From Sphingopyxis sp. (GTDB lineage Bacteria; Pseudomonadota; Alphaproteobacteria; Sphingomonadales; Sphingomonadaceae): a stretch of DNA of 64,000 nucleotides. The number at the start of each line of letters is the position of its first letter. The stretch's first letter is position 1. This document shows, one piece after another, positions 8,820 to 44,566 of the stretch. Under the pieces are notes generated by a model, which saw nothing but the letters and a program-made list of their open reading frames with translations, ran no database searches and was not told the origin of the DNA. The stretch is taken from NCBI GenBank assembly GCA_016463225.1, contig JAEMRT010000002.1, forward strand, positions 62,001 to 126,000, given 5' to 3'. Made by a program: the position numbers and the translations under genes.

Positions 8820-10415
8820 CTAGTGAGTAGTCGTGATGGAAAGGAATCCAAACAAACTGCCGCCGATCGTGTCAACGGACTTTGTTCCGCCGCCGACATT
8901 AAACACGATCTTGCACGTATCGCCGCCGACCATCGGGACGCGAGCGCGCCCTTGGATCGTGTAACGGTTGTTCGCGTCGCGCATCGCGCCGACGTTGCCG
9001 ACGAAATATTGACGACTGTAGGAAGTGGCTACGACAAACACCGTCGCGCTGTCGTGAGCCGGGCCAAGCCGCTCAAGAGGAATCACCCACTCAAAATCGT
9101 AAACGCCCGAGAACATCGCCGTAAATATACCGGTTGAAAAATTGTAATTCCCGGCAGCATCCAGGATCTCGGCGTCGGGCTTCCAATCCACATCCGTGCC
9201 GTCCCCGGTGACGTCGTTGCTGCCGACGCCAAGTCGGGCGAATATCTGGCAGAAGGCGTGTGTCAGGTAGCCGAGGTCAGTATTGGCCTTGTCGTCGATC
9301 GTTAGCGCCGTTGCCGACCTCGGCGCCGCGAGCATGACGAGCTGACCGGCTTTCGCATCGCGCGTAATGTGGGTCCCCGCCCCTGATAGACTGTCTGCGA
9401 AAAAGATATTACCCAGTACCGTTCGTGCCGTGTCGGCCGTGATATGGATGCATTTTCCCGTGTAGGATTTGCCCGGCGCAACAAGGCCCGACATAATTGT
9501 TGCCATCGCAGACGCCCGTGGCTGGCCGAGCACGATCTGCTCACCGCCACCGTTGCTTTCCGTTTGTGCATGCCCAATGAAAATCGGGCCGCCGCCGAGA
9601 ATCATCCCCGCGCCGAAGTTCTCGGACGCCGAAATCATGTCGGCAGTAAATGCTCCCCCTATCCAAAGAAAGCCCGCCTTCTCCTGATCCGTTCCGCCCT
9701 TGCCGCCGTTCTGGAAACATCTCACGCGGCTGAAAACAATCTCTCCTATGTTGTTTCCGCCATCCGTCGTGCCGAACCCGTTATGACCGTTGTTAGAGAG
9801 GAACACGTCGCGAATTGATCCGCCATACACGCTCCCGACCAGCGACAGGCCGCGTTCAGGAAATTCACAGACATTCACGCCGTCGATTGCGGCCTTTACG
9901 AACGTCTGACCGTGACCCTTGCGCCCATTCAGGACAAGGCCATTCCCAGTCGTCGCTTTGTCGGAAACCGATCCGCCGCGAAGGGTGAAGCCGCTCAACG
10001 CTGCCGAAATGCGCCGTATTTCCAAATCCGGCGGAGAAATAACAAACCCGTCGCCGGTGGTCGCGGTATGGTGAATGACTGTGCCGCCGCCGCCATAGTC
10101 CCAACTGTTGTCGAAATTTTCGCGGCCCGGGTCGCCACTGAGCGTCATAACCACATCGCTGGTCAGGCCAGCGGAGATTTCATAAGTTCCGCTCGGAAGG
10201 TAGATGGCGGAACCCTGTGGCACGCGATCTATCTTGGCTTGCATCTCCGCCGAAACCTCGGCGCCTGATCGGGCAATGATGTCGGCACCGCTTGGTACAG
10301 AAGAAGGGTTAACGTCGCGCGCGCTATTTGCTTGAGCTGCTGCGCTAGCAAACAGGGCCGATCCTCCGACTATAACCCCACGTCGAGAAGGTCGATTGTT
10401 GAAAGCGGCACTCAT
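8820..10415 (-). CDS. Tat-exported right-handed beta-helix protein (pectate-lyase-like)
   Basis: A 531-residue protein. The N-terminus has a twin-arginine motif (Ser-Arg-Arg-Gly-Val-Ile-Val-Gly) and an Ala-rich cleavage region, so export is probably by the Tat pathway. The segment at about 45-75 (Gly-Ser-Ala-Ile-Tyr-Leu-Pro-Ser-Gly-Thr-Tyr) is the entry motif of pectate-lyase-superfamily beta-helices and phage tail-spike proteins, and Asn/Gly-rich coils follow to about 390. The last 110 residues form a separate beta-rich domain (Gly-Val-Tyr-Asp-Phe near its start) resembling the C1q/TNF-like jelly roll. GGGAGG lies seven bases before the ATG at 10415. Its substrate is unknown; a surface glycan is plausible. 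Confidence 0.75.
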   Translation of the reverse strand: MSAAFNNRPSRRGVIVGGSALFASAAAQANSARDVNPSSVPSGADIIARSGAEVSAEMQAKIDRVPQGSAIYLPSGTYEISAGLTSDVVMTLSGDPGRENFDNSWDYGGGGTVIHHTATTGDGFVISPPDLEIRRISAALSGFTLRGGSVSDKATTGNGLVLNGRKGHGQTFVKAAIDGVNVCEFPERGLSLVGSVYGGSIRDVFLSNNGHNGFGTTDGGNNIGEIVFSRVRCFQNGGKGGTDQEKAGFLWIGGAFTADMISASENFGAGMILGGGPIFIGHAQTESNGGGEQIVLGQPRASAMATIMSGLVAPGKSYTGKCIHITADTARTVLGNIFFADSLSGAGTHITRDAKAGQLVMLAAPRSATALTIDDKANTDLGYLTHAFCQIFARLGVGSNDVTGDGTDVDWKPDAEILDAAGNYNFSTGIFTAMFSGVYDFEWVIPLERLGPAHDSATVFVVATSYSRQYFVGNVGAMRDANNRYTIQGRARVPMVGGDTCKIVFNVGGGTKSVDTIGGSLFGFLSITTTH

Positions 10416-10822
10416 GAATTTACCTCCCGCAGAATAATGACAATCTAACCGACAAACACCACGCGAACCGGCTGGTTCATCGTGGTCCGGCTCAACGGGT
10501 AGAGTAGTGTTGACGGAAAGCTAGCCGCACCCGGCGCCAGATCGGCAATCGGTGCGGCGGATAGACGCAAGAGCACGCCGATTCGGATATGAACGCACTC
10601 GCGATGCATGAATGCCCATACCCCGCAGAATATCGGACAGGCGCTCAACATCGCTCGCGGCTCCGATGCTATTCGACGTGAGCAAAATCTCCCCGGTTAG
10701 CAGCGGCAAAGAGGTGAACAGCGCGCATAGGCGCTGCCCCCTTCATGCTGCGCGGCGCGCATTTCAGCACCCAAAACGCAAGGTCCACGGTCTGCACAGC
10801 AAGCGTTGAAAATAATTTCACA
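10416..10822. other. Intergenic stretch with possible gene remnant
   Basis: These 407 bases lie between the Tat protein gene and integrase 2. No intact gene is seen. Minus-strand fragments in two frames may be the decayed end of one coding region (separate entry). Confidence 0.45.
10445..10709 (-). pseudogene. Possible frameshifted gene remnant
   Basis: Two overlapping minus-strand frames read protein-like over different parts. The upstream part begins Met-Pro-Leu-Leu-Thr-Gly-Glu-Ile-Leu-Leu-Thr-Ser-Asn. The downstream part ends in Tyr-Pro-Leu-Ser-Arg-Thr-Thr-Met-Asn-Gln-Pro-Val-Arg-Val-Val-Phe-Val-Gly before a stop. A frameshift would join them, but no family could be named and chance is not excluded. 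Confidence 0.22.
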
Positions 10823-13715: not shown

Positions 13716-14732
13716 ATGAATATCCTACTGACCGGAGGCACCGGCTATATCGGCAGCCATGTTGCAGCGGCGTTGATTTCCACGGGCCATGAGGTCGTTT
13801 GTTTCGATAACCTCGCCAACAGCGATGCGGTCGTGATCGACCGGCTCGAAGCGATCACCGGCACCGCTATCCCCTTGGTCGTTGGCGACATCCGTGACGG
13901 CGATGCTTTGCGCCACGCCTTGACCGAGCATGGCGTCGAAGCCGTCATCCATTTCGCGGGCCTGAAAGCCGTTGGCGAATCAGTCGCCCAGCCGATCAAA
14001 TACTATGACAACAACGTCCGCGGCACCCTGTCGCTAGTCGAGGCGATGGCCGATTGCGGGGTCAAGACGCTGGTCTTTTCGTCGAGCGCGACGGTTTATG
14101 GCGAGCCGCGCTACCTGCCGCTGGACGAGAGCCATCCGACCTCAGCGACCAATCCCTATGGCCGTACCAAGTTGATGATCGAAGAGATGTTGACCGACAT
14201 CGCCGCGGCCGATCCCGACTGGCGGATTGCGACCCTGCGCTATTTCAACCCCGTTGGCGCGCACGACAGCGGCCTGATCGGGGAGAATCCGAACGGCATC
14301 CCCAACAATCTGATGCCCTTCATCAGCCGCGTCGCCGCGGGACGTCTCGCTGAGCTGTCGGTGTTCGGCAACGACTATGACACCCCTGACGGCACCGGAG
14401 TCCGCGACTATATCCATATTGTCGATCTGGCCGATGGCCATGTCGCGGCGCTTGATACGATCGTCAAAATCGAACCGGCGCTTTCGACATGGAACCTTGG
14501 CACCGGACAGGGATATTCGGTGCTCGATATGGTCGAAGCGTTCGAACGCGTGAACAGCGTGCGCGTCCCATACCGCGTTGCGCCACGCCGCGACGGCGAT
14601 GTGGCGAGCTGCTACGCGAGCCCCGAACGCGCCGCGCGCGAGCTTGGCTGGACCGCGCAGCGCGATCTCGAAGCCATGTGCGCTTCAAGCTGGAGTTTCG
14701 AACGCACGCTGGCGATGCGCAATTCGGACTAG
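13716..14732 (+). CDS. galE: UDP-glucose 4-epimerase
   Basis: A 338-residue protein, the usual GalE length. It has Gly-Gly-Thr-Gly-Tyr-Ile-Gly-Ser-His near the N-terminus, Phe-Ala-Gly-Leu-Lys-Ala-Val-Gly-Glu-Ser, Ser-Ser-Ser-Ala-Thr-Val-Tyr-Gly, Tyr-Gly-Arg-Thr-Lys as Tyr-x-x-x-Lys, and the Arg-Tyr-Phe-Asn-Pro-Val-Gly-Ala-His motif diagnostic of GalE. It interconverts UDP-glucose and UDP-galactose in the cytoplasm. The frame is open upstream to 13563, but the family start is the ATG at 13716. Its stop shares the tetranucleotide CTAG (14729-14732) with the stop of the converging exporter gene. Confidence 0.95.
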   Translation: MNILLTGGTGYIGSHVAAALISTGHEVVCFDNLANSDAVVIDRLEAITGTAIPLVVGDIRDGDALRHALTEHGVEAVIHFAGLKAVGESVAQPIKYYDNNVRGTLSLVEAMADCGVKTLVFSSSATVYGEPRYLPLDESHPTSATNPYGRTKLMIEEMLTDIAAADPDWRIATLRYFNPVGAHDSGLIGENPNGIPNNLMPFISRVAAGRLAELSVFGNDYDTPDGTGVRDYIHIVDLADGHVAALDTIVKIEPALSTWNLGTGQGYSVLDMVEAFERVNSVRVPYRVAPRRDGDVASCYASPERAARELGWTAQRDLEAMCASSWSFERTLAMRNSD

Positions 14733-15301
14733 CCGAACCAGCCCGCCGTCTGGGCAAGTACCCACAGGCCGATCAACAGGAAGAGCCCTGCAGCGATCAT
14801 CCGCACCTTTGCGAGATCGACGCGCTTCAGCAATTCATGTCCCAGGAAGATTGCGGGCACGTTGGCGATCATCATGCCCAGCGTCGTTCCGGCGGTCACC
14901 GCGACGACGTCATGATACTGCGCCCCGAGCGCGATCGTCGCGATTTGCGTCTTGTCGCCCATTTCGACGAGAAAGAAGGCGACCAGTGTCGTCAGGAAGG
15001 CGCCGAACCGCGGCTTCGGCGCATCCTCGTCCTCGAATTTGTCGGGGATCAGTGTCCACGCCGCCATCGCGATGAACGACAGACCGATCGCATAGCGGAA
15101 GATCGCGCTATCGAGAAAACTGGCCGCCGACGCACCCAGCAGCGCCGCGAGCGCATGATTGGCCAGCGTCGCGACCAAGATTCCGAGGATAATCGGCAAC
15201 GGCCGGTTAAACCGCGTTGCGAGCAGAATCGCGAGCAGCTGCGTCTTGTCGCCGATTTCAGCGAGGGCGACGACGGCGGTCGAGGTCAGCATGGCTTCCA
15301 T
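14729..15301 (-). CDS. mneA: TMEM165/GDT1 (UPF0016) family manganese exporter
   Basis: A 190-residue integral membrane protein with two copies of the family signature Glu-x-Gly-Asp-Lys-Thr-Gln, near residue 15 and near residue 120. Each repeat has three predicted helices, separated by an acidic Glu-Asp-Glu-Asp loop. Bacterial members (MneA) export Mn2+. The Mn2+ riboswitch directly upstream supports that substrate. CGGAG lies seven bases before the ATG at 15301. It is last in the tamA-tamB-lipoprotein run and is probably both read through from it and controlled separately by the riboswitch. Confidence 0.92.
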   Translation of the reverse strand: MEAMLTSTAVVALAEIGDKTQLLAILLATRFNRPLPIILGILVATLANHALAALLGASAASFLDSAIFRYAIGLSFIAMAAWTLIPDKFEDEDAPKPRFGAFLTTLVAFFLVEMGDKTQIATIALGAQYHDVVAVTAGTTLGMMIANVPAIFLGHELLKRVDLAKVRMIAAGLFLLIGLWVLAQTAGWFG

Positions 15302-27852: not shown

Positions 27853-30024
27853 ATGCGCTATATTGATACTTCAATGACATCTGACACCGATCTCGGGATC
27901 AAGCCCGAAGCCGGATTCTCGATCAATTTCGCGCAATTATGGGCGGCCGTTTACCGGTCCCGCTTCATCGCCGCGGGCATTTTGATCGGCTGCCTGGCGA
28001 TCGGCATCGCCATCACTTTTCTGACGACGCCGATTTATCGCGCGCAAACGACGATACAGATCGATCAAGAAGCCGCCAAAGTTCTGGGCACCGAACAAAC
28101 GGACTCATCGGCATCGATCCAGGACGCCGAACGGTTTCTCGAAACCCAGATCGGCATCATGCAGAGTCGCTCGGTTGCCCTGTCGGTCGTTCGCGACTTG
28201 CGACTGACAGCCGACGACCGGTTCCTGCTGTCCATGGATGTTGATCCGCAGCAGGCCGCCGATTCTGAACTTCCGCTGGCGGAAGCCCGGCAGGATCTCG
28301 TCTTGAAGACGCTTGCCGAGAATCTGACGGTGTCGTTGCCGCGCGTATCGCGTCTGGCAACGATTTCGTTCGATAGCCCGGATGCCGCGCTGTCGGCGCG
28401 CATCGCTAATGCCTTTGCCGAGAATTTCATCCGTAACAATCTTCAGCGCAAGTTCGAGGCCTCGGCTTATGCGCGCGAATTTTTGAGCGACCAGCTCAAG
28501 CAGGCGCAGGAACGGCTGGAAGAGTCGGAACGTGCGGCCGTCAATTTCGCCCGAGAAACGGGCATCATCGATGCCAGCAAGGGCATTTCGCGCGGCGGAG
28601 AGGATTCGGCGCAGTCGCTGACGACCTCGACGCTGGTTCAGCTCAACCAGGCTCATGCTGAAGCGCTGGCGAAACGCTCGCAAGCCGAGCGAAAATGGCA
28701 AGCCGTCAGCGCCGCGCCGGTATTGAGTCTGCCCGAAGTCATCACCAACCCTGCGGTCCAGCAGTTGTCGGTTATGAGGGCTGACTTGCAAGCCAGGGTA
28801 GAGGAAGAGCAGGAGCGCCGGACTGGAGAGCATCCCGCAGTCCGGCAGCTGCAGCAGCGCCTGCAAGAGATCGAAAACCAACAAATGGCCGTCGCGCGGC
28901 GGATTCGCGACAGCGTCAAGACCGAGCGCGATATCGCCGCTTCGCAGGAAACCGCGATCAAGCGGCAGGTCGACCAGTTCAAGGGATCCACCCTGACCGA
29001 ACAAACACAGGCGGTACAGCTGTCCATTCTGCGGCGCGAGGCCAATACCAGCCGCCAGCAATATGAAGCCCTGCTGCAACGCTTCAATCAGTTGAACGCC
29101 GAAGCCGGCGTTCAAAGCAACAATGTCTCGGTCGTCGACAAGGCAGCTTTGCCGCCCGAACCGACGTGGCCGAAACTGCCGCTGAACCTTGCGTTGGCGC
29201 TGTTCATGGGGATCAGCCTGTCGGCTGCCACCATTCTGGCCCGCGAACAACTGTTCGCAAAGCTGATCTCGCCGGACGACATCAAGGATCGACTGGGCCT
29301 GCCGGTCCTCGGGGCCATTCCGTTGTGGCATTCGGACAAGAGCTTGGTGGAGTTGCTGGCCGATCCCAAGTCAGATGTGTCGGAGGCGTATAACAGCGTT
29401 CGATCCTCGCTTTCGCTATCGTCGGGAAGCGGGCTGCCGCGCTCGATCGCATTCGTCAGCACGCAGGCCAGCGAAGGCAAGTCGTCGGCTTGCCTCGCCA
29501 CCGCACTAAGCGTCAGCAAGCTCAAAAAGAATTGCGTCATGGTCGATCTCGATCTGCGCCGACCCAACCTGCACCGGTTGCTGAGCATGTCCAACAATGT
29601 CGGGGCCAGCAACATCTTGGCTGGCGAAACCGCTGTGGCGGCGGCAGTTCAGCCGACCAAATTCCCTGGCCTGAGCATCATCACCGGCGGACCGGTGCCG
29701 CCTAATCCGGCGGAGCTGTTGACCGACGAAAATATCACGGGCCTGCTTGAAGAACTCGCGAAAATCTATGACGTGATCTTCGTTGACAGCGCGCCGATCC
29801 TGGCGCTGGCCGACGCGATCATGGTCAACAACAACTGCGAGGCGACGGTCTATATCGTCGAAGCGGGACGCAACAGCCCGAACGCGGTCCTTCGTGCCGT
29901 CAGCCGTTTGCAGGAAAGCCGTTCGAAGATCGTCGGCGTCATCCTGTCGCGCTTTGATGCCGGGCGAATGGGCTATGGCTATGAATATGCCTATGGTTAC
30001 GCTTATGAATCACGCGACACATAA
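27853..30024 (+). CDS. wzc: Wzc-type chain-length regulator and bacterial tyrosine kinase
   Basis: A 723-residue protein. The N-terminal Wzz domain has a transmembrane helix at about 37-57, a long periplasmic coiled coil at about 200-400 and a second helix near 440-460. The cytoplasmic BY-kinase domain has a Walker A loop with Lys543 (Ser-Glu-Gly-Lys-Ser), Walker A' Val-Asp-Leu-Asp-Leu-Arg-Arg-Pro and Walker B Ile-Phe-Val-Asp-Ser-Ala-Pro. The last 18 residues hold a tyrosine cluster (six Tyr alternating with other residues from 708 to 718), the autophosphorylation tail. It controls polymer length and export together with Wza and Wzy. The next gene starts inside its 3' end. Confidence 0.95.
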   Translation: MRYIDTSMTSDTDLGIKPEAGFSINFAQLWAAVYRSRFIAAGILIGCLAIGIAITFLTTPIYRAQTTIQIDQEAAKVLGTEQTDSSASIQDAERFLETQIGIMQSRSVALSVVRDLRLTADDRFLLSMDVDPQQAADSELPLAEARQDLVLKTLAENLTVSLPRVSRLATISFDSPDAALSARIANAFAENFIRNNLQRKFEASAYAREFLSDQLKQAQERLEESERAAVNFARETGIIDASKGISRGGEDSAQSLTTSTLVQLNQAHAEALAKRSQAERKWQAVSAAPVLSLPEVITNPAVQQLSVMRADLQARVEEEQERRTGEHPAVRQLQQRLQEIENQQMAVARRIRDSVKTERDIAASQETAIKRQVDQFKGSTLTEQTQAVQLSILRREANTSRQQYEALLQRFNQLNAEAGVQSNNVSVVDKAALPPEPTWPKLPLNLALALFMGISLSAATILAREQLFAKLISPDDIKDRLGLPVLGAIPLWHSDKSLVELLADPKSDVSEAYNSVRSSLSLSSGSGLPRSIAFVSTQASEGKSSACLATALSVSKLKKNCVMVDLDLRRPNLHRLLSMSNNVGASNILAGETAVAAAVQPTKFPGLSIITGGPVPPNPAELLTDENITGLLEELAKIYDVIFVDSAPILALADAIMVNNNCEATVYIVEAGRNSPNAVLRAVSRLQESRSKIVGVILSRFDAGRMGYGYEYAYGYAYESRDT

Positions 30025-31245: not shown

Positions 31246-32274
31246 ATGTTTCGCGCAGATGAACTAAACGACGGCGCCTTCGTCATTGCGGAGGTTGGCC
31301 AGAACCATCAGGGGAATCTGGATAACGCGCTCGAATATATCAAGATCTACGCCGCGGCTGGTGCCGACGCCGTCAAATTTCAGACGCGCAACAATCGTTA
31401 TCTTTTCTCCGATGAATCCTATGTGGCGCCCTACGCCAGCGAAAATGCCTTTGCCGAGACCTATGGCGCGCATCGCGAGGCGCTTGAACTCGACGTCGAA
31501 GTCCTGCCGATCATCAAACAGGCTTGTCTCGACAACAAGACCGCTTTCATGTCGACGCCGTTCGATGAGCCCAGCCTGGAACTTCTCGTCGATCTCGATG
31601 TCGATATTCTGAAAATCGCGTCGTTCGACCTCGGCAATTTACCACTGATAAACCGGATGGCGAAAACCGGAAAGCCGGTTGTAATCAGCGTGGGCGGCGG
31701 CAAGATCGACCAGATCCGCAGCAGCGTCGCGACGCTGCTCGAAGGTGGCGGCGAAGTTGCCGTGCTCCACTGCGTTTCCGAATATCCCTGCGAATACAAC
31801 CGCCTTGGCCTCGACAACATCAAGACGCTGATCGATGAGTTTCCCGACTGCGTGGTCGGGTCGTCAGATCATTTTAACGGCACATTGTCGGGACCGGTCG
31901 CCTATCTGCAAGGCGCGCGCGTTTTCGAAAAGCATGTCACGCTCAACCGCGCATGGCGCGGGACCGATCACAGCTTTGCCCTAGAACCCGAGGGTTTTCG
32001 CAAATTCGTGCGGGACATTCGCCGTGTCCGCCATATGCTGCCGCCCAAGCCGGTCGATGAGCTGGGCACCGAGGCGGTGTTCAAAAAGCTGGGCAAGTCG
32101 CTCGTCGCCTATCGCGACATTGCCGCTGGCGACACGATCACCATCGATAGCCTGTCCGGCCGTATCTTCCCCGATCAGATCATCCCGGTTCGCGAATCCA
32201 ACCGGGTTATCGGCAAGGTTGCCGCGCGGGGAATCGGCAAGGGTGAAGCAATTCGCTATGACGATGTGAACTGA
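31246..32274 (+). CDS. NeuB-family ulosonic acid synthase with SAF domain
   Basis: A 342-residue protein. The TIM barrel has Ile-Ala-Glu-Val-Gly-Gln-Asn-His-Gln-Gly at the start, Ala-Val-Lys-Phe-Gln, Ser-Thr-Pro-Phe-Asp, Lys-Ile-Ala-Ser-Phe-Asp, His-Cys-Val-Ser-Glu-Tyr-Pro and Gly-Ser-Ser-Asp-His. A C-terminal antifreeze-like SAF domain begins at about 283. These enzymes condense phosphoenolpyruvate with an aldose to form a 2-keto-3-deoxy acid. The substrate is unknown: the neighbours are not the usual precursor genes for sialic, legionaminic or pseudaminic acid. CGGAGA precedes the ATG. It is the first gene of a tight six-gene cassette ending at 37781. Confidence 0.92.
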   Translation: MFRADELNDGAFVIAEVGQNHQGNLDNALEYIKIYAAAGADAVKFQTRNNRYLFSDESYVAPYASENAFAETYGAHREALELDVEVLPIIKQACLDNKTAFMSTPFDEPSLELLVDLDVDILKIASFDLGNLPLINRMAKTGKPVVISVGGGKIDQIRSSVATLLEGGGEVAVLHCVSEYPCEYNRLGLDNIKTLIDEFPDCVVGSSDHFNGTLSGPVAYLQGARVFEKHVTLNRAWRGTDHSFALEPEGFRKFVRDIRRVRHMLPPKPVDELGTEAVFKKLGKSLVAYRDIAAGDTITIDSLSGRIFPDQIIPVRESNRVIGKVAARGIGKGEAIRYDDVN

Positions 32275-32792
32275 TGGTTCCCGCCGATCCTGAGCGGCTT
32301 GACGATCTGCGACTTGTCGAACTCGTGATTTTCGATTTCGACGGCGTGTTTACCGACAACAGCGTTCTGGTCTCGTCCGAAGGGATCGAGTCGGTCCGCT
32401 GCTGGCGGAGCGACGGCCTCGGCCTCGCACGACTGGCCGCGCTTGGCGTTGCGACCCTTGTCGTCTCGACCGAAAAAAATCCGGTCGTATCGAAACGCGC
32501 CGAGAAGTTGAGGATCGAATGCCGACAGGCGATCGACGACAAGGCCGAATGTGTTCGCAGCCTTTGCGCGGAACGCGGCATCTCGCTCGATCGCGTCATA
32601 TTCGTTGGCAACGACATCAACGACATCCCGGCGCTGGAGATTGTCGGCTTATCGGTCGTCGTTGCCGACGCCTATCCCGAAGCGGTGGAGCATGCCGACC
32701 TGCAATTGTCGCGAAACGGCGGTTATGGTGCGGTTCGCGAACTTTGCGACATGATTTGGACCGCCCGAACGACCGCGCAAGAGAAAGTCTGA
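32274..32792 (+). CDS. KdsC-like HAD phosphatase
   Basis: A 172-residue HAD-IIIA protein. It has Phe-Asp-Phe-Asp-Gly-Val-Phe-Thr-Asp-Asn with catalytic Asp21 and Asp23, a conserved Ser/Thr in Val-Val-Ser-Thr-Glu, a lysine near 82 and Gly-Asn-Asp-Ile-Asn-Asp. It is related to Kdo-8-phosphate phosphatase and to the C-terminal half of some CMP-sialate synthetases. It probably removes a phosphate from the NeuB product, which would mean the pathway runs through phosphorylated intermediates. It starts as TGATG within the NeuB stop. Confidence 0.88.
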   Translation: MVPADPERLDDLRLVELVIFDFDGVFTDNSVLVSSEGIESVRCWRSDGLGLARLAALGVATLVVSTEKNPVVSKRAEKLRIECRQAIDDKAECVRSLCAERGISLDRVIFVGNDINDIPALEIVGLSVVVADAYPEAVEHADLQLSRNGGYGAVRELCDMIWTARTTAQEKV

Positions 32793-32793
32793 A

Positions 32794-33606
32794 ATGAGCG
32801 CCGATCCCCTTTTTGACGTCAGCAACGATATTGTTGTCATCACCGGCACATCGGGTACGCTGGGCGCAAACTATGCCGCTGCGTTCCTCGCACGCGGCGC
32901 GAAGGTGGCGGGGCTCGATCGTGGCCCCTCGGATCGTTCGAACTGGCTCGCCGAGCGATTTGGCAAGCAGTTCCTTCACATCGACGTCGATGTCACGGCC
33001 AAGGCAACTTTGCAGGCCGCATTGGCCACAATCGAAGCAGCGTTCGGCACGCCGACGGTATTGATCAACAACGCCGCGCTCGATTCTCCGCCCTCCGCGC
33101 CGATCGAGGAAAACGGGCCATTCGAAACCTATCCCGAAGAAAGCTGGGACAAGGTCATCGACGTCAATCTGAAGGGCGTCTTTCTCTGCTGCCAGATCTT
33201 TGGGGCGGCGATGGCAGAGGCCGGCAAGGGTTCGATCATCAACGTGGCGTCAATCTACGGCCTCGTGTCGCCAGACCAGTCGATCTATGATTATCGGCGC
33301 CAGCGCGGCGAAGTATTTTTCAAGCCCGTCGCCTATTCGGCGTCCAAATCGGGAATATATAATCTGAGCCGCTATCTGGCCCAATATTGGGCCCCCAAGC
33401 AGGTGCGCGTCAATTCGCTGACCATTGCCGGCGTGTTCGCGGGTCAGGAACAGGCCTTCCTCGACGCCTATTGCGCGCGCATCCCCGTCGGGCGCATGGC
33501 CGACCCGACCGAATATGACGGCGCCGTGCTATTCTTGGCCAGCGACGCGACGCGCTACATGACCGGCGCGAACCTGGTCGTTGACGGCGGCTGGACGTCG
33601 ATATGA
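32794..33606 (+). CDS. Short-chain dehydrogenase/reductase of the ulosonic acid cassette
   Basis: A 270-residue classical SDR. It has Thr-Gly-Thr-Ser-Gly-Thr-Leu-Gly at 17-24, Asn-Asn-Ala-Ala, the catalytic Tyr-Ser-Ala-Ser-Lys, and Val-Val-Asp-Gly-Gly-Trp near the end. It resembles PtmA-type SDRs found with NeuB genes in flagellin glycosylation loci, and could oxidise or reduce a sugar intermediate. One base separates it from the phosphatase gene and it overlaps the next gene by ATGA. Confidence 0.88.
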   Translation: MSADPLFDVSNDIVVITGTSGTLGANYAAAFLARGAKVAGLDRGPSDRSNWLAERFGKQFLHIDVDVTAKATLQAALATIEAAFGTPTVLINNAALDSPPSAPIEENGPFETYPEESWDKVIDVNLKGVFLCCQIFGAAMAEAGKGSIINVASIYGLVSPDQSIYDYRRQRGEVFFKPVAYSASKSGIYNLSRYLAQYWAPKQVRVNSLTIAGVFAGQEQAFLDAYCARIPVGRMADPTEYDGAVLFLASDATRYMTGANLVVDGGWTSI

Positions 33607-35060
33607 GCATCGACGTCCATAATTGGATTGGCGACGCAGAACAACCCTCGCCCGGCGCGCCGCGCATCGAGCGGCACAGTCCGCACGACGGACGCCTGCT
33701 TTCTACAATGCCCGATTCACCGGCGACCGATGTCGAACGGGCGATCCAGAGCGCAGCTGATGCGTTTCCTGCATGGTCGGCCGTTACGCCGGTTCAGCGC
33801 GGTAATCTCGTCTATGGCTTTGCGGCGGCACTCCGCCGGGAAGCCGAAACGCTCGCGGCGATTGTGGCCGAAGAGACGGGTAAGCCCATCCAGGATGCGC
33901 GCGGCGAAGTCGGCGGCGCGATCCAGCTTGCCGATTTCTTCGCCGGTGAAGGGATGCGACTCTATTCCCGGACCCTGACCTCGGGAATGCCGGGCAAGAC
34001 CAGCCATACCGTTCGCCAACCGATCGGCGTCGCGGGTCTGATTGTTCCCGCCAACACCCCGATCGCCAATATCGCGTGGAAAACCTTCCCGGCGCTGATC
34101 TGCGGCAATACCGCCGTTCTGAAGGCATCGGAAGACGCGCCGCGAACGGCCGATTTCTTCGCGAAACTGGCCTCAGCGTCCGGCATCGACGGCGGCGTTC
34201 TGAACGTCGTATATGGTTCAGGCGTGACGGCCGGTACCGCTCTGGTCGCCGATGCGCGCGTCGGCGTTGTCAGTTTCACCGGATCAACCGGCGTCGGTCG
34301 CCAAATTGCCGAAGTCATGGGGCGGCGCCTAGGCCGATTGTCGCTGGAACTCGGCGGCAAGAATCCGATGGTTGTCTGCGACGATGCCGATCTCGACCGC
34401 GCGGTTCACTGGGCGGCGCTTTCGGCCTTCAGCAACGCCGGCCAGCGCTGCGCCGCGGGAAGTCGCATCATCGTCATGGACGGCATTTACGACCGGTTCC
34501 GCGATGCGCTCGGCGCGCGCGCGCGGTCGCTGACGCTGGGCATTCACGAAGGCGCCGATCTTGGCCCCGTCATGCACAAGCGGCAGCAGGCGACCATCTT
34601 GGCAGCGATCGCGCGCGCCGATGATGATGGTGCGACCATTTTATGTGGTGGCAGCAACGCGCCCGCCGACCAGCCGACCGCCGGCGCCTATGTCGCGCCG
34701 ACTCTTGTCGAGGTGCCATCGCACGATCTGGACATTGCCCACCGCGAATTGTTCGGCCCGGTCGCGACGCTGCATCGCGTCGGCGATCTCGCCGAAGCGC
34801 TGGAGCTCGCGAATGGCACCGAATATGGCCTGACGGCGGCGATCCACACCCGCGATGTCGACCGCGCCAACTGGTTCGCGCACCGGGTGCGGGCGGGAGT
34901 GGTTAACGTCAATATCGGCACCTATGGCAGCGAGCCGCACATGCCTTTCGGTGGCTTCGGCGCCTCGGGCAACGGGACGCGCGAGCCGGGCGTCGAGGCG
35001 CTGGACGTCTATTCGGAACTGAAGAATATCTCTTTCCTCACGCGCAGCGAGCTTATTTGA
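33603..35060 (+). CDS. Aldehyde dehydrogenase family protein
   Basis: A 485-residue NAD(P)+-dependent aldehyde dehydrogenase. It has Pro-Ala-Asn-Thr-Pro-Ile-Ala-Asn, Phe-Thr-Gly-Ser-Thr-Gly-Val-Gly, the general base in Leu-Glu-Leu-Gly-Gly-Lys-Asn, the catalytic cysteine in Asn-Ala-Gly-Gln-Arg-Cys, and Glu-Leu-Phe-Gly-Pro-Val. It oxidises an aldehyde to a carboxylate. Inside a NeuB/CMP-synthetase cassette this is unusual and suggests a sugar carboxylate or uronic-type precursor. It overlaps both neighbours, so it clearly belongs to the operon. Confidence 0.92.
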   Translation: MSIDVHNWIGDAEQPSPGAPRIERHSPHDGRLLSTMPDSPATDVERAIQSAADAFPAWSAVTPVQRGNLVYGFAAALRREAETLAAIVAEETGKPIQDARGEVGGAIQLADFFAGEGMRLYSRTLTSGMPGKTSHTVRQPIGVAGLIVPANTPIANIAWKTFPALICGNTAVLKASEDAPRTADFFAKLASASGIDGGVLNVVYGSGVTAGTALVADARVGVVSFTGSTGVGRQIAEVMGRRLGRLSLELGGKNPMVVCDDADLDRAVHWAALSAFSNAGQRCAAGSRIIVMDGIYDRFRDALGARARSLTLGIHEGADLGPVMHKRQQATILAAIARADDDGATILCGGSNAPADQPTAGAYVAPTLVEVPSHDLDIAHRELFGPVATLHRVGDLAEALELANGTEYGLTAAIHTRDVDRANWFAHRVRAGVVNVNIGTYGSEPHMPFGGFGASGNGTREPGVEALDVYSELKNISFLTRSELI

Positions 35061-35062
35061 CC

Positions 35063-35830
35063 ATGCCGCCGAAAGCCGTCGCCCTCATCCCTGCCCGTGC
35101 CGGATCGAAGCGGGTCGCCAACAAGAATATCCGGCAGCTTGCCGGACATCCGATGATGGCATATTCGATCCGCGCCGCGATCGACAGCGGCGTGTTCGCG
35201 TCGGTCGTCTGCGCTACCGATAATGAGGAATATGCCGATATTGCGCGCTATTATGGTGCCCATGTTCCGGCGTTGCGGCCCGCCGCCATGTCGGGTGACA
35301 AATCGCCCGATATTGAATGGATCCGCTGGATCCTCGATCTTCTCGACCAGCAGGGTGATCCGGTCGACGTGTTCAGCATCCTGCGTCCGACCAGCCCGTT
35401 TCGCCGCGCCGAAACGATTCGCCGCGCCTGGGCAATGTTTCTGGCCAGCCCCGGTGCTGATTCGCTGCGCGCGGTCGAAAAATGCCGCCAGCACCCGGGC
35501 AAGATGTGGGTGATCCGCGGCGACCGCATGCTGCCGCTGATGCCGTTCTCCAATGGTGCGACGCCTTGGCATAGCAGTCAATATGCCGCGCTGCCCGAAA
35601 TCTATGCGCAGGATGCAAGTCTCGAGATCGCCTGGGCGCGCGTTGCACGCCAAGGCGATAGCATCGCCGGTGACGCGATCATTCCCTTCGTCAGCGAAGG
35701 TCTTGACGGATTCGACATCAACGAGCCCGAAGACTGGCTTTTGGCCGAACAATATGTGACGGGCGGCGCGGTGACGTTGCAATCGATCGGACACGCCCCC
35801 TATCCCGGCCCGTCCCAACTAGGAGCATAA
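35063..35830 (+). CDS. CMP-ulosonic acid synthetase (acylneuraminate cytidylyltransferase family)
   Basis: A 255-residue NeuA-type nucleotidyltransferase. It has the N-terminal CTP-binding motif Leu-Ile-Pro-Ala-Arg-Ala-Gly-Ser-Lys-Arg, then Ala-Thr-Asp-Asn-Glu-Glu-Tyr, Leu-Arg-Pro-Thr-Ser-Pro-Phe-Arg and a C-terminal Phe-Asp-Ile-Asn-Glu-Pro-Glu-Asp. It activates a 2-keto-3-deoxy sugar acid with CTP for transfer. The substrate is presumably the product of the NeuB homolog upstream. The ATG at 35063 lies two bases after the preceding stop. Confidence 0.92.
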   Translation: MPPKAVALIPARAGSKRVANKNIRQLAGHPMMAYSIRAAIDSGVFASVVCATDNEEYADIARYYGAHVPALRPAAMSGDKSPDIEWIRWILDLLDQQGDPVDVFSILRPTSPFRRAETIRRAWAMFLASPGADSLRAVEKCRQHPGKMWVIRGDRMLPLMPFSNGATPWHSSQYAALPEIYAQDASLEIAWARVARQGDSIAGDAIIPFVSEGLDGFDINEPEDWLLAEQYVTGGAVTLQSIGHAPYPGPSQLGA

Positions 35831-35837
35831 ACAAGCC

Positions 35838-37781
35838 ATGGGTGATCTCATCGGTACCGCCGTCGGCGGAACCCTCTATTATGTCGCGAAGTCGGAATTC
35901 GATCGTGTGCTCGCCCTGCCCGTGCCGGACGTCCAGCGCGTCGGCATTTTCGCGACGCTTGCCCGGATCAACACGCTCTACATGATCGCCCGGGCGGGAT
36001 CGGGGCATATCGGCAGCAGCTTCAGCAGCCTCGACATGATGGCCTGGATCGAATTGCGCGGCCGACGCCGCGACGCCGATGGCCAATCGAACGATCTGTT
36101 CTTTTCATCCAAGGGGCATGATGCCCCGGGGCTCTATAATGTCCTGATCGCGACCGGCGCGCTCGATTTCGACAATATCCATATGCTCCGCCGCCTCGGC
36201 GGCCTGCCCGGTCATCCCGATGTCAACGTGCCCGGCATGGCCTTCAACACTGGCTCACTCGGGATGGGCGTATCCAAGGCCAAGGGGTTTCTCGCCGCGA
36301 ACCGTCTGTTGCAGCGCGACGGCCGCGTTTTTGTGTTGACCGGCGACGGCGAGTTGCAGGAAGGCCAGTTCTGGGAATCGCTGATTTCGGCGGCCAACGG
36401 CAAGATGGACAACCTTGTCGTCATCATCGACCACAACAAGCTGCAGTCGGACACGCTGGTCGCCCAGGTCAGCGACCTCGGCGACCTGGAAGCCAAGCTC
36501 AAGGCGTTCGGCTGGCATGTCGCACGGTGCGATGGCAATGATCTGGCCGCGTTTTCCGCCACCCTCGATGATTGCATGGCGGTGACCGGTCAGCCCAAAA
36601 TCATCATCGCCGACACCGTGAAAGGGAAAGGCGTGTCCTTCATGGAACATACCTCGATCGATTCTGACGTCGAGCTCTATAAATTCCATAGCGGCGCCCC
36701 CAGCGCCGAAGCTTATGTCGCTGGCGCGCAAGAACTGATCGACCTCGCCAATCGCCAGCTTGCTGGCGCCGGCGCGGACGCCCTGCTGCTGGAAATCGAG
36801 GAACGCCCGCAGGCTGCCGCGCCGCCGCCAGGCCAGCAGCGGCTGGTTCCCGCTTATAGCAACGCGCTGCTCGCCCAGGCCGCCAAGCATGCCAATCTGG
36901 TCGCGCTCGACGCGGATCTCGTGCTCGATACCGGGCTTATTCCTTTCCGCGATGCGTATCCCGATCGCTTCATCGAATGCGGCATTGCCGAACAGGATAT
37001 GGTGTCGCAGGCTGGCGGCATGGCGCGGGGCGGCCTGTTGCCGATCGTTCACTCCTTTGCCTGTTTCCTGTCGGCACGTCCGAACGAGCAGATTTACAAC
37101 AATGCGACCGAGGGTACAAAAATCATCTATGTCGCGTCTCTGGCCGGCGTGCTGCCCGCCGGCCCCGGACATTCGCATCAGGCGGTGCGCGACATATCTT
37201 CGCTCGCAGGTGTGCCGGGACTGACGATGGTCGAGCCCTCGTGCGAGGCCGAGGTCGGCGCGCTGCTCGACTGGGCCATCGACGAAAATGACGCGAGTAC
37301 CTACATCCGGCTCGTCTCCACCCCCTGTGACATCCCTTATGCTTTGCCCCAGGACTATACGCCCCGCCCGGGTATAGGCGTCATCCTGGCCGATGGCGAG
37401 GATGTGGTCGTGATCGCTTATGGCCCGACGATGCTGCCCGTCGCGATCGACGCCGCCCACAAGCTGTCGAACAACGGCATTCAGGCCCGCGTTGTGAACC
37501 TGCCCTGGCTCAATATAGTCGATCGCGACTGGTTGGCAGGCGTGGTCAAGGGTGCGAGCGCCGTGGTATCGATCGACAATCACTACGTCGTCGGCGGCCA
37601 GGGTGACCGGATCGCCGACGCTCTGGCGACGATCACCGATGCGCCGCCGCTGGTTCGCCTGGGGCTTCGCGACGTGCCGCCGAGCGGACAAAATGCCGAG
37701 GTACTGGACGCGTTGGGACTGGACGCCGCAACCATCGCATCAACCATCAGCGCCGCCCTGGCGGCGGCGCGCAAAGCGTGA
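35838..37781 (+). CDS. Transketolase in the polysaccharide locus
   Basis: A 647-residue full-length thiamine-diphosphate enzyme. The N-terminal half has Ser-Gly-His-Ile-Gly, Gly-Ser-Leu-Gly-Met-Gly and the cofactor motif Gly-Asp-Gly-Glu-Leu-Gln-Glu-Gly. The C-terminal half has Glu-Cys-Gly-Ile-Ala-Glu-Gln-Asp-Met and Pro-Gly-His-Ser-His-Gln-Ala. It resembles transketolases found in surface-polysaccharide and secondary-metabolite clusters rather than only the pentose-phosphate enzyme. It may make the sugar acceptor for the NeuB homolog or add a two-carbon branch. It follows the CMP-synthetase gene by seven bases. Confidence 0.9.
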   Translation: MGDLIGTAVGGTLYYVAKSEFDRVLALPVPDVQRVGIFATLARINTLYMIARAGSGHIGSSFSSLDMMAWIELRGRRRDADGQSNDLFFSSKGHDAPGLYNVLIATGALDFDNIHMLRRLGGLPGHPDVNVPGMAFNTGSLGMGVSKAKGFLAANRLLQRDGRVFVLTGDGELQEGQFWESLISAANGKMDNLVVIIDHNKLQSDTLVAQVSDLGDLEAKLKAFGWHVARCDGNDLAAFSATLDDCMAVTGQPKIIIADTVKGKGVSFMEHTSIDSDVELYKFHSGAPSAEAYVAGAQELIDLANRQLAGAGADALLLEIEERPQAAAPPPGQQRLVPAYSNALLAQAAKHANLVALDADLVLDTGLIPFRDAYPDRFIECGIAEQDMVSQAGGMARGGLLPIVHSFACFLSARPNEQIYNNATEGTKIIYVASLAGVLPAGPGHSHQAVRDISSLAGVPGLTMVEPSCEAEVGALLDWAIDENDASTYIRLVSTPCDIPYALPQDYTPRPGIGVILADGEDVVVIAYGPTMLPVAIDAAHKLSNNGIQARVVNLPWLNIVDRDWLAGVVKGASAVVSIDNHYVVGGQGDRIADALATITDAPPLVRLGLRDVPPSGQNAEVLDALGLDAATIASTISAALAAARKA

Positions 37782-38635
37782 CAGGCACCATGATCAAAAA
37801 ACTGCAAAACGCCGTCGCGCGAATGATCGCCGGGGTCGAAACCCACACCCGGCTCGCACAGCGGGCCCGTTACGAAGATCTCCGCGATCGCAAGCAACGC
37901 GAGCAACCCCGGACTCTGTCGGCGTCGGGCTACAAGATTTTTTCACAAAGCGACGAAGACGGTATGATCGCCGAAATTTTCCGCCGCATCGGCACAACCA
38001 ATAAGCGCTTCGTCGAATTCGGCGTCGGCGACGGCCTGGAAAACAACACGTTGGCGCTTTTGTACCAAGGATGGACTGGGCTGTGGATCGATGGATCAGA
38101 CGAGTTTTGCCGCACCATCACGGCGGCTTATGACAAAGCGATCGCCTCGGGCCAACTGGCGCTCATCAACAGCTTTATCACGCGAGACAATATCGATGTG
38201 CTGATCACCAGCCGGATTGAGGCGGGCGAGATTGATCTGTTGTCGGTCGATATCGACGGGAACGATGCCCATGTGTATCGTGCCATCAAAAGCATTTCGC
38301 CCCGCGTTATCGTATTTGAATACAACGCGAAATTTGGACCCGAGATCGACTATTGCATGGCTTATGACGCCGTTCATATGTGGCGAAAATCGGACCGTTT
38401 CGGCGCATCTCTCAAGCATTATGAAACATTGTTGGACGGCAAGGGCTATCGCTTGGTCGGATGCAATCTCGTGGGCACGAACGCCTTTTTTGTCCGCGAT
38501 GATCTGATCGGTGACAAGTTCGACGGGCCGTTTACTGCGGCAGAGCATTTCGAACCAGCGCGTTACGAACTGGCGGGCATTCCATCTGGCCATCCACCCA
38601 TCCACGCCACATTCGCGACACGGGTAGGCGGGTGA
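37778..38635 (+). CDS. FkbM-like methyltransferase-fold protein
   Basis: A 285-residue protein. A Rossmann-like motif Glu-Phe-Gly-Val-Gly-Asp-Gly-Leu-Glu-Asn-Asn-Thr lies near residue 80, followed by Thr-Gly-Leu-Trp-Ile-Asp-Gly. Later Leu-Leu-Ser-Val-Asp-Ile-Asp-Gly-Asn-Asp and Val-Phe-Glu-Tyr-Asn are the pattern of FkbM-related proteins common in glycan clusters. It may methylate a sugar, but the target is unknown. The GTG at 37778 overlaps the transketolase stop as GTGA; an ATG at 37790 is the alternative start. Confidence 0.75.
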   Translation: MTGTMIKKLQNAVARMIAGVETHTRLAQRARYEDLRDRKQREQPRTLSASGYKIFSQSDEDGMIAEIFRRIGTTNKRFVEFGVGDGLENNTLALLYQGWTGLWIDGSDEFCRTITAAYDKAIASGQLALINSFITRDNIDVLITSRIEAGEIDLLSVDIDGNDAHVYRAIKSISPRVIVFEYNAKFGPEIDYCMAYDAVHMWRKSDRFGASLKHYETLLDGKGYRLVGCNLVGTNAFFVRDDLIGDKFDGPFTAAEHFEPARYELAGIPSGHPPIHATFATRVGG

Positions 38636-42805: not shown

Positions 42806-42850
42806 ATCACCCTTCTGCCTTCTCCACATATTTTGAAGAATTTGACCGTA

Positions 42851-44566
42851 ATGTCGATTGCCAGCATTCGCGAAACCGCCCTGAGACTGATCCGGCTCGT
42901 ACCCAGTCTCGACGCCAGATTGAGGCGGTTGCGTCGGAAAGTTCTGGCGAAGGGCAGCGGCTATCCGGCTTGGTCGACCATTGTGATGGCGGAAGGCAAG
43001 CCTTCTGCGAAGGTCGGCCCAGCCGAGCGGCGCAAGGTGTTGATCGCTACCAGCATTGGATCGCATCTGCCCGCGATGCAGATGGAAACGACATTGGCGG
43101 CCGCGCTCGCGCTGCGCGGCGCTGACGTCGATGCGCTGCTCTGTGATGCCGTGCTTCCGGCCTGCCAGATGTGCGAACCACGCTTCTTTGCGAAGCCTGC
43201 AGACCTGGCAAGAAACGGACCGCAAGCCACGCTGTGCGGCGATTGCTTCGTTCCTGGCAAGCGCGTCTATGGCGAGCTCGGTATTCCGGTCCACAGCTAT
43301 TCGGACAATATCACAGCCGACGAGTTCGCCACGGCGCGCCGCTTGGCCAGCGAATTGTCGGTTACAGCCATTGAAGGTTTCGAGCTCCACGGATTACAGG
43401 TGGGCGAACACGCCAAGGCGGGGGCGCTGCGTTTTTACGCCAGCGCATCGATCGGCCACGAACCCGATGCCGATGCCATCATCCGGCGCTATTTCGAGGC
43501 GGCGCTGCTCACCGTCTATGCCGCCGACCGGTTGATGAAACGCGAGCAATATGATGTCGCGGTCTTTCACCACGGCATTTATGTTCCGCAGGGATTGATC
43601 GGTGAAGTCGCCAGACGCAACGGTGTGCGTGTGGTCAACTGGAACCCGGCATATCGGCGCAATTGTTTCCTGTTCAGCCATCACGATACCTATCACCACA
43701 CGCTGATGGTCGAACCAGTCAAAACCTGGGAGGCGATGCCCTGGCCCGAGGCACGATCCGACAATATCCGCCGCTACCTGCGTAGCCGCTGGGAGGGCAG
43801 CAACGACTGGATCCGTTTTCACGGAGACCCCGTGTTCGGCCGCGAGCGTATCCTGGACGAAATCGGCTGTGATCCATCGAAGCCGATCATCGCCTGCCTG
43901 ACCAATGTCATGTGGGACGCGCAACTGCACTATCCGGCCAATGCGTTTGCCGATATGCTGGAATGGCTGCTCCACACGATCCGCTATTTTGCCGCCCGGC
44001 CCGATATTCAGTTGGTCATTCGCGTCCATCCCGCCGAGATTACCGGGACGGTGCCGACACGCCAACCGGTGGTCGAGGTGCTGAAAGAGCATTTCGACGC
44101 ACTGCCCGCCAATGTCTTTGTCGTCCCGCCGGAAAGCGACATCAGCACCTATGTGCTGGCCGAAATGTCGGATTCGGCGATCATCTACGGAACCAAAACG
44201 GGGGTCGAATTAGCCGCGGTCGGGATCCCTGTAATCGTCGCCGGTGAAGCTTGGATCCGCGGCAAGGGCTTGACCTGTGATGCCACCAGCCCCGACAGCT
44301 ACGACGACATCCTGGCGCAACTGCCGATCGGAAACCGGATGGACGACGCCATGATAGAACGCGCACTGAAGTATGCTCACCATTTCTTCTTCCGGCGCAT
44401 GATCCCGGTGCAATGCTTTGAGCAGGGGCCGGGATGGCCGCCGTTTCAATTCTCGGGAACATCGTTCGCCGGGTTGACGGCTGGCGTTGATGTCGGGCTC
44501 GATTGCATTTGCGACGGCATATTGTCCGGAACCCCGTTTGTTTACGACGAGGCGGCCCATGCATAG
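42851..44566 (+). CDS. Capsule-type glycosyltransferase with four-cysteine motif
   Basis: A 571-residue protein with a GT-B-like layout. Its C-terminal half (Val-Ile-Arg-Val-His-Pro-Ala-Glu, then Tyr-Gly-Thr-Lys-Thr-Gly-Val-Glu-Leu-Ala) matches capsule polysaccharide synthesis proteins of the KpsS/LipB and related surface-carbohydrate families. The N-terminal half has an unusual cysteine set: Cys98, Cys105-x-x-Cys108 and Cys129-x-x-Cys132, which could bind zinc or an iron-sulfur cluster. The ATG at 42851 is preferred over a TTG at 42833. It overlaps the following wzy by eight bases. Confidence 0.8.
   Translation: MSIASIRETALRLIRLVPSLDARLRRLRRKVLAKGSGYPAWSTIVMAEGKPSAKVGPAERRKVLIATSIGSHLPAMQMETTLAAALALRGADVDALLCDAVLPACQMCEPRFFAKPADLARNGPQATLCGDCFVPGKRVYGELGIPVHSYSDNITADEFATARRLASELSVTAIEGFELHGLQVGEHAKAGALRFYASASIGHEPDADAIIRRYFEAALLTVYAADRLMKREQYDVAVFHHGIYVPQGLIGEVARRNGVRVVNWNPAYRRNCFLFSHHDTYHHTLMVEPVKTWEAMPWPEARSDNIRRYLRSRWEGSNDWIRFHGDPVFGRERILDEIGCDPSKPIIACLTNVMWDAQLHYPANAFADMLEWLLHTIRYFAARPDIQLVIRVHPAEITGTVPTRQPVVEVLKEHFDALPANVFVVPPESDISTYVLAEMSDSAIIYGTKTGVELAAVGIPVIVAGEAWIRGKGLTCDATSPDSYDDILAQLPIGNRMDDAMIERALKYAHHFFFRRMIPVQCFEQGPGWPPFQFSGTSFAGLTAGVDVGLDCICDGILSGTPFVYDEAAHA

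Follow-up and report, generated by a model that had tools for sequence, protein, structure and literature searches.

A candidate route to a CMP-activated 3-deoxy-ulosaric acid: KDN-like genes and a recurrent, putatively tailoring trio in bacterial exopolysaccharide loci

Which sugar is made and activated by a NeuB-NeuA gene set that has none of the usual precursor genes beside it? The question is raised by six open reading frames (ORFs) packed on the plus strand at positions 31246–37781 of a 64,000-nt stretch from Sphingopyxis sp. (assembly GCA_016463225.1, contig JAEMRT010000002.1, positions 62,001 to 126,000; the whole stretch is referred to as the window). The ORFs encode a NeuB-type synthase, a HAD phosphatase, a short-chain dehydrogenase (SDR), an aldehyde dehydrogenase (ALDH), a NeuA-type cytidine monophosphate (CMP)-ulosonate synthetase, and a divergent transketolase (TK). 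An earlier description from the letters alone (the sequence-only reading) had six genes packed with overlaps or gaps of a few bases, and the ORF coordinates confirm this. NeuB and the phosphatase overlap by 1 base, the phosphatase and SDR are separated by 1 base, SDR and ALDH overlap by 4 bases, and the gap between NeuA and TK is 7 bases; with its TTG start, NeuA overlaps ALDH by 4 bases, and the alternative ATG at 35063 results in a 2-base gap. We propose, with a probability of roughly 40%, that NeuB, the phosphatase, and NeuA form a core resembling the pathway to 3-deoxy-D-glycero-D-galacto-non-2-ulosonic acid (KDN), and that the trio of SDR, TK, and ALDH tailors its product, resulting in a CMP-activated 3-deoxy-ulosaric acid.

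The sequence-only reading suggested that other genomes be searched for the same synteny, and the gene order indeed recurs across several phyla. The NeuB scan, with one genome per species, comprised 84,980 species and yielded 67 pattern matches, 21 of which are relatives, from 20 distinct loci, the NeuB proteins of which are 58–76% identical to that of the window. When these 20 loci were searched by tblastn with the six window proteins, SDR, ALDH, and TK were found together, in the same order and on one strand, in 16 loci, and all three were absent from the fetched stretches of the other four (L016, L018, L020, and L021; a split TK with 28% identity in L021 was left uncounted). This pattern suggests that the three enzymes act as one unit, and the recurrence, which exceeds what chance would bring about, bears out the earlier claim that the cassette genes belong together. 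The proteins of the trio loci are 46–76% identical to those of the window. The HAD phosphatase adjoins NeuB in 13 of the 16 trio loci (not in L008, L015, and L017), and in 14, all but L011 and L013, a NeuA with at least 50% identity is encoded between ALDH and TK. Extra genes are inserted between ALDH and NeuA in L009, L010, and L012, and the TK of L010 is cut by the end of the locus. The carriers are Beta- and Alphaproteobacteria, Bdellovibrionota, Bacteroidota, and a Zixibacteria metagenome-assembled genome, with Methyloversatilis, Rhizobium leguminosarum, and Pseudobdellovibrio among them.

Which kind of synthase the NeuB is can be approached via a motif and a binding residue. The motif YGxHR is present in 23 of 23 NeuB proteins of the window clade, in all three synthases encoded beside a KDN-9-phosphate (KDN-9-P) phosphatase over the family cut-off (L087–L089), and in three of three further synthases of that phylum, but in none of five others, namely NeuB of Neisseria meningitidis, SpsE of Bacillus subtilis, an SpsE-like protein, and two proteins over the PseI cut-off. 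The reference set was derived from 247 genomes of the Bacteroidetes phylum of L010, seven of which encode a phosphatase over the cut-off; the phosphatase stands alone beside NeuB in L087–L089, is fused to NeuA beside NeuB in L090 and L092, and lies in the order HAD, SDR, NeuA, NeuB in L091, whereas no NeuB was seen in the 3.3 kb of L093. For L089, the synthase corresponds to the C-terminal portion of a 581-aa ORF, of which the sequence from residue 236 onward was used. According to an excerpt of PMC6795526, Arg314 of the N. meningitidis NeuB contacts the N-acetyl group of N-acetylmannosamine (ManNAc). At this position, all 25 clade rows counted have Ile, all three KDN-type synthases Ser, and both PseI proteins Arg. 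As YGxHR is shared with the KDN-type synthases and Arg314 is replaced, the NeuB product is likely to carry a phosphate and to be free of nitrogen, like that of the KDN route. The phosphorylated ulosonate of the sequence-only reading thus fits both the NeuB motif and the presence of a phosphatase. That reading also called for a NeuB phylogeny. In the tree, of which only the split and the clade support were used owing to long outgroup branches, the window clade (support 100/99) is indeed separate from a group (98/93) of SpsE, the N. meningitidis NeuB, and PseI; what had not been foreseen is the link by motif to the KDN-9-P-type synthases, with which the clade shares 33–36% identity.

The closest known system is the KDN pathway of Bacteroides thetaiotaomicron and Prymnesium parvum, in which mannose-6-phosphate is condensed with phosphoenolpyruvate (PEP), followed by a phosphatase and a CMP-synthetase (PMC6200933, in the part available). 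The cassette shares with it the NeuB-HAD-NeuA logic, a presumed start from a common sugar phosphate, and YGxHR; it differs in that its NeuB forms a clade of its own and its phosphatase scores below the KDN cut-off. The available part of that paper describes no counterpart to the SDR, ALDH, and TK. The sequence-only reading set the cassette apart from the sialic, legionaminic, and pseudaminic acid clusters, which holds, but overlooked the KDN route. All NCBIfam matches of the ulosonate enzymes and the transketolase fall short of the curated cut-offs: NeuB reaches 238 of 400 bits for NeuB (TIGR03569) and 197 of 340 for PseI (TIGR03586), the phosphatase 103.5 of 208 for KdsC (NF007019) and 96.3 of 180 for the KDN-9-P phosphatase (NF058599), NeuA 125 of 206 for PseF, and TK 385 of 488 for NF004559. 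In one reference cluster (L091, G700:C12:111900-120300), the HAD over the cut-off, NeuA, and NeuB are accompanied by an SDR 37% identical to that of the window; perhaps this is another tailored KDN.

The active site of the transketolase is unusual. R318, S345, H416, D424, and R474 of human TK are among the residues of an active-site model in the accessible section of PMC8016368. In the cassette family, R318 is replaced by Ile or Val, S345 by Asp, H416 by Leu, and D424 by Pro in all 17 rows that cover these positions, and Ser stands at the position of R474 in 15 of 15 aligned rows, whereas the thiamine diphosphate (ThDP) motif and the ketol-binding His positions do not vary among the 15 rows. 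The last four of the five human residues (S, H, D, and R) are retained by a solved split TK, whose R318 position lies outside the alignment. In a Streptomyces TK, the D, L, P, and S of the cassette family recur, and the residue at the R318 position is Pro. We take R318, S345, H416, and R474 to hold the substrate phosphate and the histidines and the ThDP motif to hold the ketol end. On this assumption, the cassette TK would have lost the sugar-phosphate-holding positions and retained the ketol-end residues. The enzymes appear to form a subfamily with a fixed active-site signature, ranging from Proteobacteria to Streptomyces, and must use another substrate than textbook transketolase does. The other enzymes seem catalytically intact: DxD and GNDxND of the phosphatase are present in 17 of 17 relatives, Ser and YxxxK of the SDR in 18 of 18, and Cys and Glu of the ALDH in 17 of 17, all of which, like the TK motifs, presumably have their usual catalytic roles.

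The pathway that we propose would begin with the condensation of PEP and a phosphorylated aldose of general metabolism, most likely mannose-6-phosphate, by NeuB. The HAD phosphatase would then remove the phosphate from the ulosonate phosphate, releasing a nitrogen-free 3-deoxy-2-ulosonate such as KDN. Oxidation of the penultimate hydroxyl (C8 of a C9 sugar) by the SDR would create a terminal HOCH2-CO-CH(OH)- ketol. This is the donor part that a transketolase must recognize. TK would cut off the two-carbon ketol unit and leave an aldehyde at C7, which the ALDH would oxidize to the carboxylate. This would yield a 3-deoxy-hept-2-ulosaric acid, which is isomeric with, or otherwise related to, 3-deoxy-D-lyxo-heptulosaric acid (Dha) of plant pectin. 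NeuA would join CMP to the trimmed diacid, and the CMP-diacid would enter the Wzx/Wzy-type exopolysaccharide of the surrounding locus, possibly via a KpsC-like protein encoded there (Table 1). The order SDR-TK-ALDH is proposed because it is the only one we found in which each enzyme makes the substrate of the next. We predict a 3-deoxy-ulosaric acid as the product of the tailoring module with moderate confidence. The claim in its full form, namely that a scattered, probably laterally moved pathway leads to CMP-3-deoxy-ulosaric acid and that a dedicated, phosphate-independent TK trims a KDN-type sugar, is more doubtful.

Somewhat unlikely, but the best surviving alternative, is that NeuB, HAD, and NeuA make plain KDN or another simple ulosonate, and that the trio makes a separate product, for example, an acyl or ether decoration of the same polymer. 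Core-only stretches do exist. In two members of the Prochlorococcus family (L101 and L102), NeuB, HAD, and NeuA lie in a row, with identities of 59–61%, 54–55%, and 52–53%, respectively, and no trio match was found within 18 and 11.5 kb; a third (L103) has NeuB, HAD, a cupin, and a diverged NeuA. Furthermore, the KDN pathway is known chemistry (PMC6200933, in the part available), and NeuA hardly differs between loci with and without the trio: only two columns discriminate between the groups, compared to a mean of 0.007 and a maximum of 1 for random groups (300 draws, with L011, L016, and L103 excluded on grounds of low identity or of length). We do not lean on this column result because the groups, of 15 and 4 sequences, are small and related; the HAD has a single, mild discriminating column, again in small groups. 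A separate product accords poorly with the arrangement of the genes: the trio is encoded after NeuB and on its strand in 16 of 16 loci, with NeuA between ALDH and TK in 14 of them, and a Streptomyces locus joins NeuB, SDR, and TK directly, which fits action on the NeuB product.

This locus lies on a plasmid of Streptomyces sp. NBC_01237 (L100, NZ_CP108509.1) and encodes NeuB (40% identity, with YGxHR), SDR (43%), and TK (52%) in a row; no match to ALDH, KdsC-like HAD, or NeuA was found within 30 kb. Further on, Pfam assigns genes to an RraA-like aldolase, a HAD_2 protein, and a class-III aminotransferase, the last starting 2.2 kb downstream of TK. Class-III aminotransferases often act on terminal aldehydes, and we count the presence of one here, with no similar ALDH, in favor of tailoring. 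By eye, the cluster (L100:8583-19437), in which a reductase is encoded as well, looks like a nonribosomal peptide synthetase cluster with hydroxyphenylglycine-type genes, possibly for a natural product with an ulosonate-derived building block.

Less probable still is the scheme of the sequence-only reading, in which TK, SDR, and ALDH supply NeuB with an unusual aldose or sugar acid for extension with PEP. The tight packing of the six genes and the position of SDR and ALDH between the phosphatase and NeuA would suit it, and a TK without phosphate positions could take an unphosphorylated aldose. However, the same NeuB clade occurs with no trio nearby and with the same pocket residues. At 18 positions of the N. 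meningitidis NeuB (13 listed in an excerpt of PMC6795526 and five others; position 288 may be misaligned), 19 trio rows and six core-only rows agree; the exceptions are two trio rows that vary at position 74. Moreover, no column of the NeuB alignment is fixed in trio rows with a residue absent from core-only rows. The trio rows include L026 and L027, two 4-kb loci in which the SDR is seen and which are too short for ALDH and TK; L018 was left out as ambiguous. If the trio supplied its substrate, NeuB would be expected to differ between the groups; since it is alike, the trio probably acts after NeuB and tailors its product. The genomes of L016, L020, and L021 contain no close TK (34–37% identity covering under half of its length, or no match at 1e-30), ALDH (33–37%, or nothing at 1e-60), or SDR (36%, or nothing at 1e-20), and the best SDR matches in the whole genomes of L101 and L102, searched for this protein only, have 34% and 40% identity. 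In addition, both the motif of NeuB and the presence of a phosphatase speak for a phosphorylated substrate, and the cassette contains no isomerase that would convert a TK ketose to an aldose. The earlier interpretation is thus partly supported: the phosphorylated ulosonate stands, whereas the building of an aldose for NeuB probably does not.

Quite improbable is a lengthening of the chain, in which the ulosonate acquires a terminal aldehyde to which TK attaches a two-carbon ketol, resulting in a C10–C11 ulosonic acid. TK chemistry is reversible, and the loss of the phosphate positions would suit an unphosphorylated donor, for example, hydroxypyruvate, but the ALDH would be without a role because TK would use up the aldehyde.

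Finally, the cassette could be a disguised pathway to N-acetylneuraminic (Neu5Ac), legionaminic, or pseudaminic acid with the precursor genes elsewhere. Its NeuB, with the SAF domain, and its NeuA/PseF-type synthetase do belong to those superfamilies, but no dehydratase, aminotransferase, acetyltransferase, or hydrolysing epimerase is present in the cassette, as had been noticed earlier, and the synthase is by its motif of the phosphorylated-product type. The sequence-only reading named precursor genes elsewhere in the genome as evidence against its proposal. In the host genome (5.63 Mb, 96.2% complete, 7.2% contaminated), which encodes one NeuB, neither a NeuC-type epimerase nor a full-length DegT aminotransferase or PF02719 dehydratase was found; acetyltransferases were not searched. 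The single Epimerase_2 protein is the non-hydrolysing WecB (477 bits vs. 83 for NeuC). Four DegT and six PF02719 matches exceed the Pfam gathering scores, all of them weak and partial: the best DegT match has 30 bits and spans 68 of 360 positions, and the best PF02719 match has 62.5 bits and spans 175 of 293. An Epimerase_2 match is absent altogether from four of ten other genomes searched (L008, L014, L016, and L022), and three of the eight trio-bearing genomes searched, the host included, thus have none (L008, L014, and L022). Judged by gene content and the replaced Arg314, the cassette is not a pathway to any of these three acids, and the reading deserves hardly any credence. The plain 3-deoxy-D-manno-oct-2-ulosonic acid (Kdo) pathway of KdsA, KdsC, and KdsB, which likewise has a KdsC-like phosphatase, a phosphorylated ulosonate, and CMP activation, was also rejected: the synthase is NeuB, not KdsA, and the CMP-synthetase is nearer to PseF (125 bits) than to the Kdo cytidylyltransferases (at most 42 bits).

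Several observations weigh against the tailored-KDN pathway that we prefer. The TK would require a two-carbon acceptor, and none can be named. The NeuB clade differs from the KDN-type synthases at N. meningitidis positions 112 (three of three) and 55 (two of three), so the aldose may not be mannose-6-phosphate, and the phosphatase, apart from being below the KDN-9-P and KdsC cut-offs, is not beside NeuB in three of the 16 trio loci. NeuA, which would be expected to read the tailored end, has only the two mild discriminating columns. The trio is not strictly bound together either: the Streptomyces locus has SDR and TK without ALDH, and the L018 genome has a TK (52%), located 36 bases from a contig start, and no ALDH above 33%. 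The bare cores have limits of their own. The L102 contig ends 1.3 kb past NeuA, and one of the two cyanobacteria, the genomes of which were searched for the SDR only, has an SDR of 40% identity elsewhere. An add-on of an MR_MLE protein, a PanE-like reductase, and another NeuA occurs in L011 together with the trio and in L016, which lacks the trio, and is left unexplained by the model. To our knowledge, no polysaccharide structure is known for any carrier, and the substrates and reactions of the enzymes are predicted from gene content, conservation, and residue changes.

If the tailored-KDN pathway is correct, a candidate biosynthetic route would be available for a Dha-type sugar for the first time, and a transketolase would have the new role of a side-chain trimmer. 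Dha, a constituent of plant rhamnogalacturonan II, is of the same type as the proposed bacterial product, but the stereochemistry would differ with mannose-6-phosphate as the start: by our own count, the C4–C6 configuration of a KDN-derived product would be L-arabino, compared to D-lyxo in Dha. The enzymes and the nucleotide form of Dha in plants are given as unidentified in the accessible part of PMC12168206, and the cassette would provide cloneable candidates for enzymes of a Dha-type sugar. It would also add a nitrogen-free, tailored class of CMP-activated sugars to the bacterial surfaces of several phyla and explain a recurrent, apparently unassigned operon of exopolysaccharide loci. The pathway, a variant of the KDN-type route, is apparently unreported. 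Among the open-access papers searched (most subscription papers and preprints being unsearchable), none was found to join a transketolase, SDR, or ALDH with a NeuB cassette; PMC12342839, the only paper found that contains both "nonulosonic acid" and "transketolase", has them in unrelated places, and the papers found on ulosaric acids mainly concern plant pectin.

The wide range of carriers suggests that the trio-bearing unit probably moves laterally; it is rare, and its distribution is scattered. Among 199 genomes of the host's family, the cassette NeuB was found in the host genome only (E 1e-60). It was present in three of 300 genomes of the order of Methyloversatilis and in four of 350 genomes of the family of the Prochlorococcus locus, in both cases including the genome of the known locus, and in one of 347 genomes of the order of the Pelagibacter locus, which is the genome of that locus itself. 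NeuB had no match in plasmids at 1e-60, none in viral contigs, and one in phages (29% identity, at 1e-20). TK had one plasmid match, in Streptomyces, and matched 12 phage records with 32–37% identity, three of which cover 80% of the query. The GC content across the cassette, 57–64%, gives no sign of foreign origin. The scans for promoters (7 vs. 4.0, sd 1.7, in shuffled sequences) and terminators (11 vs. 10.6) were little informative.

The cassette lies inside an exopolysaccharide locus. A Wzy_C protein and a Poly_export protein (Pfam) are encoded upstream, and the upstream ORF at 27853-30024 is Wzc-like by eye. Downstream follow a protein without a family, methyltransferases, glycosyltransferases, a flippase-like protein, and a Wzy_C protein, as well as a priming transferase (on the opposite strand), a GDP-mannose dehydratase, WecB, and a UDP-sugar dehydrogenase. 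Because the ORF of the family-less protein overlaps TK, the six genes would be part of a longer exopolysaccharide operon. Homologs with 59–61% identity also follow TK in L005 and L022, and by eye the protein resembles FkbM-like methyltransferases. The 577-aa orphan, which matched no family model, is perhaps the transferase of the CMP-activated product. It shares its fold with the beta-Kdo transferases KpsC and WbbB; the identity is 9–15%, and the match to single KpsC domains is at fold level only. A cyanobacterial homolog of the orphan weakly matches the BFO_1060 transferase family (37 bits vs. a cut-off of 200), a lead that we set aside.

Table 1. Genes of the six-gene cassette and two further genes of the same locus in the window.
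Feature	Position	Strand	Basis or remark
NeuB-type ulosonic acid phosphate synthase with SAF domain, 342 aa	31246..32274	+	PF03102 218.7 bits + SAF
KdsC/KDN-9-P-phosphatase-like HAD phosphatase, 172 aa	32274..32792	+	Pfam HAD; KdsC 103.5 bits
Short-chain dehydrogenase (SDR), 270 aa	32794..33606	+	Pfam PF13561
Aldehyde dehydrogenase (ALDH), 485 aa	33603..35060	+	Pfam PF00171 486.5 bits
NeuA/PseF-type CMP-ulosonate synthetase, 257 aa	35057..35830	+	Pfam PF02348 (CTP_transf_3), N-terminal part only
Divergent transketolase (TK), 647 aa	35838..37781	+	Transketolase_N, Transket_pyr, Transketolase_C
285-aa protein without Pfam or NCBIfam family	37778..38635	+	overlaps TK by 4 bases
577-aa orphan, candidate ulosonyltransferase, KpsC/WbbB fold	42833..44566	+	same locus, outside 31246-37781

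Further genes were seen around NeuB in other loci. The MR_MLE protein (enolase superfamily), the PanE-like reductase, and the different NeuA follow NeuB-HAD at L011:12880-15729 and L016:10023-12843. In the trio-less loci, a small cupin is encoded beside NeuB (L016:12901-13335, L020:11360-11791, and L021:10019-10444, the latter two by eye); it also occurs in L103 (reversed, 10088-10528) and within 4–5 kb of NeuB in L101 and L102, and is possibly a sugar isomerase. Near the NeuB-HAD-NeuA row of L101, an HpcH/HpaI-type aldolase is encoded at 14032-14811, and by eye a similar gene is located at L102:2933-3712.

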